From positions 1 to 38,264 of the forward strand of contig CADAOB010000012.1 of the NCBI GenBank assembly GCA_902789445.1: DNA of 38,264 nt, written 5' to 3'. Position numbers and translations under genes: made by a program. Under the pieces are notes generated by a model. The model had not been told where the DNA came from and did no database searches. It saw only the letters and a program-made list of their open reading frames with translations. Every line of letters begins with the position of its first letter. The first letter of the stretch is position 1. The DNA comes from an uncultured Bacteroidia bacterium (GTDB lineage Bacteria > Bacteroidota > Bacteroidia > Bacteroidales > UBA932). Positions 3,657 to 6,541 of this stretch are shown one piece after another.

Positions 3657-5042
3657 ATGGCTGAGAAGATTGGACGTGTTCCCGTCCGGGAACAGGACCC
3701 GAAGGTCCGAGCCCGCAACTTCGAGGAAGTTTGCTTTGGCTATAATGAATCGGAGGCGCTGCTCGAGGCTTCGCGCTGCCTGAACTGCCGCAATCCGCGC
3801 TGCGTGCAGCATTGCCCGGTCGGCATCCGGATTCCGGAATTCATCGCCCAGGTCAAGGCGGGCGAATTTGATGCGGCGGCCCGCGTCATCGCACGCGACA
3901 GTTCGCTGCCCGCTGTCTGCGGCCGCGTCTGTCCGCAGGAAACGCAGTGCGAAGGCAGCTGCATCCTCGGCGTGAAAGGCGAGCCGGTGGCCATCGGCAA
4001 GCTGGAACGCTTCGTGGCCGACAGGAGCCGGGAACGGGGCGGTGTCCCCGTCGAGAAGGCTGAACCCAACGGCATCAAGGTCGCCGTGGTGGGCAGCGGT
4101 CCTTCCGGACTGGCCTGCGCCAGCGACCTGGCTAAGCTGGGCTACGACGTGACCATTTTTGAGGTCCTCCATAAGGCCGGCGGCGTGCTGCAGTACGGCA
4201 TTCCGGAGTTCCGCCTTCCCAAAGAGCGGGTGGTGGAGCCCGAAATAGCCCAGGTCAAGGCTTTGGGAGTGACGATCGAGACCGATGTCGTGGTCGGCCG
4301 TACCATTACGGTCGATGAACTCCTGGACCGCGAAGGTTTCAAGGCGGTGTTCATCGGTTCGGGTGCCGGCCTGCCGCGCTTCATGAACATCCCGGGAGAG
4401 AGCCTCAACGGTGTGTTCTCGGCCAACGAGTTCCTGACACGCAGCAATCTGATGAAAGCCTACGATCCGCAGAGCGATACGCCGATCTTTGTCGGGAAGC
4501 ACGTCGTCGTCGTAGGCGGCGGCAACGTGGCGATGGATGCAGCCCGTACGGCCCTGCGCCTGGGCTCTGAAGTGACCATCGTGTACCGGCGTACCGAGAA
4601 GGAACTTCCGGCCCGGGCCGAGGAAGTCCATCACGCCAAGGAAGAGGGCATCGACTTCCGGATGCTGACCAATCCGGTCGAGGTCCTGGGCGACGAGAAA
4701 GGCTGGGTGCGCGCCCTGCGCTGCATCCGGATGGAACTCGGCGATCCCGATGCCAGCGGCCGCCGCAGCCCGGTACCCGTAGCCGGTTCTGAATTCGAGG
4801 TACCGGCCGATTGCGTGATCATGGCGCTGGGGACCTCACCCAACCCGCTGATCGCCGGTACGACGAAAGGGCTGGAAACGGAGCGGCACGGCTGTATCGT
4901 AGCCGACGAATCGGGTGCGACGACGCGCCCGGGCGTCTTCGCCGGCGGCGACGCCGTCACCGGTGCCGCCACGGTCATCCTGGCCATGGGTGCCGGCCGC
5001 CGCGCCGCCAAGGCTATCGACACCTATCTCCGCAGCGTATAA
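3657..5042 (+). CDS. gltA: NfnB / GltA-type NADPH-dependent glutamate synthase small-chain homologue
   Basis: 461 residues. The N-terminal domain carries two cysteine clusters, CLNCRNPRCVQHCP (near residue 41) and CGRVCPQETQCEGSC (near residue 88), for [4Fe-4S] centres. Then come a Rossmann FAD site, VVGSGPSGLACASDLAKLG (near 145), and a second dinucleotide site, VVVGGGNVAMDAARTALRLG (near 283). It ends with the GVFAGGDAVTGAATVI flavin motif. No large GltB subunit is encoded nearby, and the upstream gene is NfnA-like, so I read this as the NADPH-binding subunit of an NfnAB-type oxidoreductase rather than a true glutamate synthase. A strong GGGAGG ribosome-binding site lies at about 3644, and the start is one base past the upstream stop. 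It is the last gene of a plus-strand cluster; one base separates its stop from the convergent transposase gene. Confidence 0.88.
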   Translation: MAEKIGRVPVREQDPKVRARNFEEVCFGYNESEALLEASRCLNCRNPRCVQHCPVGIRIPEFIAQVKAGEFDAAARVIARDSSLPAVCGRVCPQETQCEGSCILGVKGEPVAIGKLERFVADRSRERGGVPVEKAEPNGIKVAVVGSGPSGLACASDLAKLGYDVTIFEVLHKAGGVLQYGIPEFRLPKERVVEPEIAQVKALGVTIETDVVVGRTITVDELLDREGFKAVFIGSGAGLPRFMNIPGESLNGVFSANEFLTRSNLMKAYDPQSDTPIFVGKHVVVVGGGNVAMDAARTALRLGSEVTIVYRRTEKELPARAEEVHHAKEEGIDFRMLTNPVEVLGDEKGWVRALRCIRMELGDPDASGRRSPVPVAGSEFEVPADCVIMALGTSPNPLIAGTTKGLETERHGCIVADESGATTRPGVFAGGDAVTGAATVILAMGAGRRAAKAIDTYLRSV

Positions 5043-5043
5043 G

Positions 5044-5988
5044 TCACGAAATCCGCCCCCTGCGCTTTCCGCAGGCGATATGAAGGATGTCGCTGATCTG
5101 CTGGCGTCTGAGGCCCAAGGTCCTTGCCAGTTGCGGGACGGTTGTCTTCCGGGTTCTCCACAGGTACGGAACCAGGCGGATTTTCCGGTCGATGGATAAG
5201 TCCGCCAGTTCTTGCTGATACCAGCGCAGGCTGACCTCGTTTACACTTTTGTGAAACTCACCGTCCACGAGCATGGTCCGGGGCGCTTCCACCAGCTTTG
5301 ACCGCATTTCCGCAGGATTCTGCCCTCCGATTGCTTTCAGAAAAAAGGACTGGTCGTGTTCGAAGGCCTGTTCCAGGTACTCGCAGTCGCAGAAACTTGC
5401 GGGGATCAATCGGCTTCCAGCGTCGAGTCGCCATTTGACATCCTTCAAGGAATCCCCGGTATGCATGAGCCTCCGACATTCATCTTTCGTGAGTGCCGCG
5501 ACAGGCCGGCCCTGCCCTTGACCAAGACTGGCAGGATTGAACATCGCGCGGTATCCGGACCAGGGATATTCGTTGACATTGCACCCGTTGTCCAGCGCAT
5601 TCCGGAGAATATAGGCCAGGGCGTTGCGGACATACCAATCGCTGTCAAGGCTGATTGCCTTGACGTCCGTTTTCTTCATAATCCGCTGTTCCCCATATCG
5701 TCGGCTGAACCACATTGCGTACATTCGCTTGCATTCCTGTCCGAAGGCGTGGGCGTCCTCCTGCCTGGCCGCAAGGACAGCGATATGGCTGTGGTTGGAA
5801 ACGACAGCATAGACGATGATGATCACGTTTTTGCGGCGGGCACATATGCAGAGGATCTTGACCATGGCGTCGTAGTCTTCGTCGCAGCGGCAGAGTATGG
5901 CGTTTTCCAGTCCCTCCATACTGACATGGAAGGGCTGGACGCTTCGGGCGCTGCCGTCCGGCAGTTTCCGGAAAACACAACGTCGCAT
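5044..5988 (-). CDS. RAYT: REP-associated tyrosine transposase (Y1/HUH family)
   Basis: 314 residues. The N-terminal half is a Y1 transposase domain. VVSNHSHIAV (about residues 61-70) carries the metal-binding HUH pair (HSH), and KRMYAMWFSRRYG (about 88-100) supplies the expected catalytic Tyr. DSDWYVRNALAYILRNAL and EYPWSGYRAMF are typical of RAYTs, single-domain enzymes related to IS200/IS605 TnpA that nick and rejoin single-stranded REP hairpins. The C-terminal third carries a probable helix-turn-helix (TVPQLARTLGLRRQQISDIL) that may bind DNA. No TnpB is present. The ATG at 5988 is 2 bases after the stop of the upstream small gene, so the two are one transcript. Two inverted REP-like hairpins lie just upstream at 6428-6541. 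Base composition is lower in GC than in flanking genes. All key residues seem intact. Confidence 0.88.
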   Translation of the reverse strand: MRRCVFRKLPDGSARSVQPFHVSMEGLENAILCRCDEDYDAMVKILCICARRKNVIIIVYAVVSNHSHIAVLAARQEDAHAFGQECKRMYAMWFSRRYGEQRIMKKTDVKAISLDSDWYVRNALAYILRNALDNGCNVNEYPWSGYRAMFNPASLGQGQGRPVAALTKDECRRLMHTGDSLKDVKWRLDAGSRLIPASFCDCEYLEQAFEHDQSFFLKAIGGQNPAEMRSKLVEAPRTMLVDGEFHKSVNEVSLRWYQQELADLSIDRKIRLVPYLWRTRKTTVPQLARTLGLRRQQISDILHIACGKRRGRIS

Positions 5989-5990
5989 AA

Positions 5991-6344
5991 TCAGCTGATT
6001 GTGCTGGATGGTTTGACCCCCGGCCCGAAAACCATCACCTTCCCGCCGTTCTTTTCGAACTCTTTCTTCGCATGCAGGAACGATTTTGCGAGCGCGGCGG
6101 AATCTTCATCATAATCCCGGATCATCTGCTTTCGATTGACGCTCACGGCCAGGTCGGCGATGGCCAGTGCACGGATCATGGCCAGAACGGCCATCTCATT
6201 TCCGCCCCATAACCGTGTGACCATGGCGAAAGCTGTACGGGAAATCACGTCGGGAATCACATTGGGATTTTTGACGGGGTCGAAATCCGTATTGAAACGG
6301 ATGTCGATGTCTCCATACTGGAGTACTTCAAGAATCTTTTTCAT
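5991..6344 (-). CDS. Small protein of unknown function, partner of the RAYT
   Basis: 117 residues, no signal peptide or membrane segment. The start MKKILEVLQYGDIDIRFNTD is followed by a predicted helical middle (VISRTAFAMVTRLWGGNEMAVLAMIRALAIADLAVSVNRKQ is one continuous hydrophobic-patterned stretch, split here as VISRTAFAMVTRLWGG and NEMAVLAMIRALAIADLAV) and a charged helix rich in Lys and Glu (about 78-103). I recognise no domain and assign no function. It is the first gene of a two-gene transcript: a good promoter sits at 6369-6400, and only 2 bases separate its stop from the transposase ATG. This coupling suggests a role with the RAYT, for example as a regulator, DNA-binding helper or dose control of the transposase. 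That is inference. Confidence 0.75.
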   Translation of the reverse strand: MKKILEVLQYGDIDIRFNTDFDPVKNPNVIPDVISRTAFAMVTRLWGGNEMAVLAMIRALAIADLAVSVNRKQMIRDYDEDSAALAKSFLHAKKEFEKNGGKVMVFGPGVKPSSTIS

Positions 6345-6368
6345 AACGACACATATCTATCACGTCTG

Positions 6369-6400
6369 CAAATATACAATGCGGGATACCCCTTTGTCAA
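6369..6400 (-). promoter_or_regulatory. Promoter of the RAYT operon
   Basis: On the minus strand a -7 element TATATTTG (6369-6376) matches TAnnTTTG exactly. A TTG at 6398-6400 lies 21 bases upstream as the -33 element. The ATG at 6344 follows about 24 bases downstream. Confidence 0.65.
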
Positions 6401-6427
6401 GTCTTTTCCGCAAAAAAAACGTGTAAG

Positions 6428-6466
6428 ACGGGCAGGGTCTCATTTTAGACGGGAAACCTTGCCCGT
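6428..6466 (+). repeat. REP-like hairpin, copy 1
   Basis: A 39-base element with an 11-bp stem (ACGGGCAGGGT pairing with ACCTTGCCCGT, one G-T pair) and a 17-base loop that begins CTCATTTTAG. It is the inverted counterpart of copy 2 at 6503-6541; when copy 2 is reverse-complemented, 30 of 39 positions match. Pairs of inverted REPs beside a RAYT gene form the typical BIME arrangement. Confidence 0.75.
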
Positions 6467-6502
6467 AGAAATCAATCGACAGGCGTGTTAGAGCAAGAAG
6501 AA

Positions 6503-6541
6503 GCGGGCAAGGTCCCGGGGCTTAAATGAGACCTTGCCCGC
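6503..6541 (-). repeat. REP-like hairpin, copy 2 (inverted)
   Basis: A 39-base element with a perfect 11-bp stem (GCGGGCAAGGT with ACCTTGCCCGC) and a 17-base loop, the same geometry as copy 1. On the minus strand its loop reads CTCATTTAAG, matching the loop start of copy 1. The spacer between copies is 36 bases. It ends 63 bases before the stop of the C69 peptidase gene, and could also serve as a transcription barrier for it. Confidence 0.75.

Follow-up and report, generated by a model that had tools for sequence, protein, structure and literature searches.

Known RAYT systems and the module in the window

The closest described systems are the REPtrons of Escherichia coli and Pseudomonas, in which a gene for a REP-associated tyrosine transposase (RAYT, or TnpA_REP) stands beside inverted repetitive extragenic palindromes (REPs). 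According to the accessible parts of the literature, classical REPs carry a GT[AG]G foot (PMC2817692, PMC6006769, PMC8266576) and are commonly described as numbering over 100 per genome (PMC2817692). The available text of PMC6006769 further describes TnpA_REP subclass 2.6 (Bertels group 5) of Bacteroidetes, where REP-like structures without GT[AG]G flank the gene and have copies elsewhere in the genome. The module analysed here lies in contig CADAOB010000012.1 of an uncultured gut Bacteroidia bacterium (Bacteroidales, UBA932; assembly GCA_902789445.1), and the whole stretch analysed, 38,264 nucleotides, is referred to as the window. The module comprises a RAYT gene, a small adjacent gene (the partner), a promoter-like site and a doublet of inverted REPs (a REPIN), and looks like an unnoticed variant of the systems that spread short repeats through bacterial genomes. 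The same architecture of RAYT, partner and hairpins recurs in other species.

The RAYT gene (5044..5988, minus strand) encodes a Y1/HUH transposase of 314 amino acids. The catalytic motif and tyrosine are intact, as originally predicted (SNHSH at residues 64-68, Tyr126), and S64, N65, H66, H68, Y126 and N130 were invariant in 36 sequences. The fold is nearer to TnpA_REP than to the TnpA of IS200/IS605, with 4er8 the closest structure, and the C-terminal region is helical with a helix-turn-helix-like pattern. The protein scored below the curated cut-offs of Pfam Y1_Tnp (18.4 bits, cut-off 23) and NCBIfam REP_Tyr_transpos (12.2, cut-off 80), and Y1_Tnp was matched at E ≤ 0.01 by 13 of 14 aligned members. 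The window RAYT is a divergent family member, and a score threshold does not define a mechanism. RAYT-like Y1 proteins are plentiful in the genus, with matches to the window RAYT in 30 of 40 genomes and up to 11 matches per genome.

The partner gene (5991..6344, minus strand; 117 amino acids) stops 2 bases before the RAYT ATG, and its product is near-neutral in charge where the RAYT is basic. The promoter-like site (6371..6400, minus strand) reads TTGACA-18-TATATT(TG), matches the consensus at 11 of 12 positions and runs on as TATATTTG; the layout TTGACA...TATNTTTG also preceded the partner in the five close relatives examined (L085, L086, L087, L088, L097). Between 4900 and 6700, five promoter-like sites were counted, against a shuffle mean of 0.7. 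The motif TAnnTTTG, which we take to be the Bacteroidetes -7 element, occurred within 110 nt upstream of 26 of 61 partners (mean of 3.2 after base-composition shuffling). Upstream of the promoter, REP 1 (6428..6466, plus strand; loop starting CTCATTTTA) and its inverted copy REP 2 (6503..6541, minus strand; loop starting CTCATTTAA) are 39-base hairpins with 11 base pairs and a 17-base loop, with one G.T pair in REP 1. Together they form a REPIN of 112 nt (6429..6540) with a start-to-start spacing of 75 nt. The small gene, consensus promoter and inverted hairpins named by the original prediction were thus all recovered.

The module shares with the E. coli and Pseudomonas REPtrons the Y1/HUH fold closest to 4er8, a gene beside inverted REPs, dispersed REPIN doublets, and a genomic position that is the same, or nearly so, in several related species. 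It differs in the length of the RAYT (314 amino acids against the 165-residue chain in 4er8), in the adjacent partner gene, and in REPs that lack the GT[AG]G foot, carry a conserved motif in the loop and occupy 6 sites. Compared with subclass 2.6 as described in the accessible part of PMC6006769, the window protein is longer and has NHSH and YILRN in place of NH[LIV]H and YIH[QN]NP, and the hairpins have long perfect stems in place of weaker structures; a partner gene is not mentioned there for that subclass. TIRtrons likewise combine a RAYT-like gene with flanking non-GTAG repeats that form repeat families, but have long terminal inverted repeats where the window has compact REPIN doublets and a partner gene (PMC3733652, available in part). 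With the TnpA of IS200/IS605 (IS608, ISDra2), the module shares the HUH/Y1 fold and hairpins. A RAYT partner gene is not mentioned in the accessible parts of the RAYT and REP literature, including PMC6006769, PMC3733652, PMC2817692, PMC8266576 and PMC8049555, subscription journals being thinly covered.

Dispersed REPIN doublets

Inverted REP doublets were present in the same genome at C7, C12 (the window) and C29, those at C7 and C29 having the same loop start. A two-arm pattern found 6 sites in this genome and 0 in a reversed control. The window doublet is a REPIN, with two inverted REPs, a short variable spacer and dispersed copies. Among 34 REPIN doublets in 708 kb (the window and fetched loci), the spacing was 75 nt in 21, 63 nt in 7, 73 nt in 4 and 84 nt in 2; the difference between 75 and 63, 12 nt, is about one helical turn.

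The information content was taken from 22 distinct doublets (44 REPs), collected by a procedure that selects for the stem and not for the loop or flanks. The DNA 5' of the REP foot held ≤0.04 bits at positions -12 to -3, 0.38 at -2 and 0.12 at -1, and no conserved tetranucleotide, GT[AG]G or other, was found in the 44 flanks. Loop positions 14-17 and 19 (ATTT.A), on one side of the loop, held 0.87-1.95 bits. The inner flank was weakly conserved, with peaks at +5 and +6 (1.03 and 0.70 bits). Among 32 REPs with various stem types, 8 of the 11 base pairs vary at both bases; nearly all of these rows were picked for good pairing, which raises the paired percentage. Because of their dispersal, loop conservation, flank composition and covariation, the hairpins behave like a REPIN family without the classical foot; they are called REPs by analogy, following the usage for subclass 2.6. 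The RAYT-REP reading of the original prediction is therefore backed by the fold, the catalytic residues, the dispersed doublets and the covariation.

The two-arm pattern, allowing up to 2 mismatches (reversed control 0 or 1 per strand), was present in 15 of the 40 genus genomes, a few of the 2-mismatch sites resembling chance by eye. The seven genomes with the partner and a close RAYT (65% identity or more) held 6 (G000), 16 (G003), 6 (G004), 7 (G011), 12 (G018), 4 (G028) and 3 (G033) sites; 28 of the other 33 held 0-2. For this contrast, Fisher's p was 4e-5, uncorrected for relatedness; as regards RAYT-dependent REPIN mobilisation, it is a correlation only. Four REPINs lie inside 3.4 kb in G036, which lacks a close RAYT (L224:1910-5304).

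At partner loci, a strict regular expression placed REP-like sites near the module in 35 of the 43 loci with a RAYT downstream of the partner, in neither of the 2 with a RAYT upstream and in 2 of the 15 without a RAYT. The 120 kb close to partner loci held 79 sites and the 536 kb elsewhere held 10. Among the 43 loci, a REP lay upstream in 25, downstream in 23 and on both sides in 13. As the expression requires a GGT/ACC core, it misses other REP types (L123, L133, L138). A tandem array of approximately 8 hairpin units of ~52 nt was seen directly downstream of a divergent partner-bearing RAYT (L068:7174-7590).

The partner gene and its genomic sites

A contig scan found 60 partner loci, all in metagenome-assembled genomes (MAGs) labelled Bacteroidales or Bacteroidia, one of them Candidatus Cryptobacteroides; the scan needs conserved peptides, so the divergent copies of genus g21 were missed. 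The related genomes are all MAGs and vary in completeness. In a single-sequence search, 9 of 40 genus genomes had the partner, against none of 60 genomes of other genera. With a profile, it was found in 50 of 398 family genomes (3 of 25 genera) and, among 393 genomes drawn from the order, in one, that of the window.

The coupling of the two genes, as proposed, held beyond the window: a same-strand RAYT was adjacent in 45 of the 60 loci, directly downstream in 43 and upstream in 2 (L135, L139). The other 15 partners had no adjacent RAYT; of these, L093 is cut by a contig end, and L140 and L141 have identical sequences. The partner stop and the start of the RAYT reading frame or match were 1-4 nt apart in 34 of 42 loci (L143 excluded). 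Among 17 further stretches, some from the same places, the RAYT was adjacent in 14 and not in L181, L183 or L184, and in four stretches of g21 the RAYT precedes the partner.

In a RAYT tree of 73 rows (22 of 27 tried partnerless rows kept, some rows long-branched), the 51 partner-bearing RAYTs required 9 label changes, 6 of them forced by well-supported branches. Several RAYT lineages are thus associated with the partner, through either repeated gain or loss. In the poorly resolved partner tree, partners did not group by RAYT lineage. The ratios of non-synonymous to synonymous substitution (dN/dS), with 2 of 15 pairs giving no estimate, indicated purifying selection both beside a RAYT (0.08-0.17) and in orphans (0.09-0.21). 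RAYTs are present elsewhere in nine of the 10 orphan genomes searched, which cover 10 of the 15 orphan loci. The AlphaFold model of the partner (pLDDT 89, pTM 0.74) shows a beta-hairpin and three helices; neither a convincing structural match to the model nor a protein family was found.

The three nearest partnerless RAYTs (L069, L070, L071; ~50% identical) had no partner in the fetched DNA. Each has one GGGGTAGGTC...GACCTACCCC hairpin with a 15-nt loop and a 12-14-bp stem, and no hairpin doublet was seen there. Among 10 partnerless RAYT loci scanned, this hairpin type occurred in these three only; the others had different hairpins and L075 had none.

The module site in the window is bounded on the left by a putative gltA-like oxidoreductase gene (3657..5042, plus strand; gltA below), which ends 1 nt before the RAYT stop, and on the right by a peptidase C69 gene (6605..8257, minus strand). 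Both genes flank the module in the window, G004 and G018; gltA adjoins it in G011, where C69 was not seen within the fetched stretch, and C69 adjoins it in G003 and G028. No module separates the two genes in G026 and G033, where C69 follows gltA within ~80 nt; G033 carries its module on another contig. The empty intergenic site of L240 holds a different hairpin type (GATGTCCC...GGGACATC). In G004 (L097), identical 129-bp REPIN-containing stretches lie on both sides of the module, and identical flanking stretches occur in L138 (83 bp), L094 (72 bp), L101 (41 bp) and L099 (37 bp).

A second site, with a C69-like gene on one side and a common downstream gene on the other, holds the partner without a RAYT in L107, L110 and L136, and a RAYT with a REPIN in L113 and L115; L106 shares only the upstream DNA. 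By eye, L113 and L115 also appear to carry what is left of another partner copy: in L113 the 3' end of the partner is repeated after the REPIN, and in L115 a promoter and start remnant precedes the module. This site, the flanking repeats and the occupied and empty gltA-C69 sites favour REPIN-bounded insertion or recombination.

Possible roles of the partner

The module probably works as a REPtron-like unit of a RAYT, its cognate REPIN and an added accessory gene. The promoter between the REPIN and the partner would drive a two-gene transcript, from which the partner would be translated first, with RAYT translation coupled to it. The RAYT would bind single-stranded REP hairpins through the stem (GGT/ACC core) and the ATTT.A loop motif, cut through Tyr126, and move or copy REPINs at a low rate. 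The small, near-neutral partner would most likely bind the basic RAYT and set its amount or activity, in cis or, for the orphan copies, in trans. An accessory regulator is the most likely role because of the close spacing, the conserved linkage, the dispensability of the partner, the presence of most orphans in RAYT-bearing genomes and the contrast in charge. Bolder, and tentative, is the idea of a two-component RAYT system of one Bacteroidales family, in which a dedicated protein from a new family, possibly with a new fold, keeps RAYTs from several lineages under control, in cis and, as orphan copies, in trans, and works with a REP class read by its loop and not its foot.

Several observations weigh against the REPtron-like interpretation. 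The genus genomes have RAYT matches far more often than the partner (30 against 9 of 40), a quarter of the 60 partner loci have no neighbouring RAYT, and no RAYT match was found in the orphan genome G794 (reached through L140). A REPIN stands on just one side of the window module, and the 6 sites in its genome are a low copy number. Five genomes hold at least 3 such REPs without a close RAYT (G036 14, G039 10, G008 7, G007 3, G001 3), which fits RAYT loss or incomplete MAGs, and G013 and G016 have the partner and a divergent RAYT with none of these REPs. The strict expression found no REP in 8 of the 43 loci with a RAYT downstream or in the 2 with a RAYT upstream; some of these loci bear hairpins of other sequence, and L134 and L142 bear none. 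Of the original prediction, the RAYT-REP association and the partner linkage stand, whereas a "two-component system for REP mobilisation" overreaches: RAYT matches are commoner than the partner among the genus genomes, 15 of 60 partners stand without a RAYT, and the nearest RAYT homologues lack the partner yet keep a REP-like hairpin of similar geometry. The outcomes named as fatal to that prediction did not occur: the genome holds further hairpins of this type, and the closest homologues, though partnerless, retain repeats.

An alternative to regulation is that the reaction requires the partner as a co-factor. It would then help the RAYT to read the loop motif, in place of the 5' guide tetranucleotide that these REPs lack, or form a bridge between the paired REPs of a REPIN. 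The near-absence of information 5' of the foot beside a strongly conserved loop, the few fixed REPIN spacings and the linkage in either gene order would suit such a role, but the partnerless L069-L071, whose hairpins have the same 15-nt loop and a comparable stem, show that this geometry does not depend on the partner, and the partner is near-neutral rather than basic; we regard a co-factor as unlikely. Equally doubtful is an antitoxin-like inhibitor or antidote of the RAYT, with orphans restraining other RAYTs in trans. The tight partner-first order in most loci, the selection on orphan pairs and the RAYTs elsewhere in most orphan genomes agree with it. Against it stand the many RAYTs that live without any partner, which also speak against a strict toxin-antitoxin pair, the reversed order in the four g21 stretches, L135 and L139, and G794, which has a partner and no RAYT match.

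The partner could also be cargo, a host gene with its own role beside which RAYT modules repeatedly land and which is kept for co-expression only. Orphans under selection at one shared site, the RAYT, REPIN and apparent partner remnants at that site in L113 and L115, and the absence of grouping by RAYT lineage in the partner tree lend this some weight; set against the adjacency of RAYTs of several lineages, in both orders, in most loci, and the spacing of 1-4 nt, it appears rather improbable. It is very improbable that the hairpins are ordinary transcription terminators or attenuators unrelated to the RAYT. They are intergenic, upstream of the module promoter and downstream of the C69 gene, but a terminator scan found none at the window hairpins, which occur as two inverted copies at a fixed spacing with the motif kept on one side of the loop, and are dispersed and enriched with the cognate RAYT.

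Considered as a REPtron-like unit with an accessory gene, the module suggests that REPs lacking the GTAG foot can be recognised by a motif in the loop. A conserved partner, a locus that occurs both with and without a RAYT, and related RAYTs of which some have the partner and others do not would bear on how single-copy RAYTs persist and stay controlled over long times, and would make the control of REPIN mobility testable.
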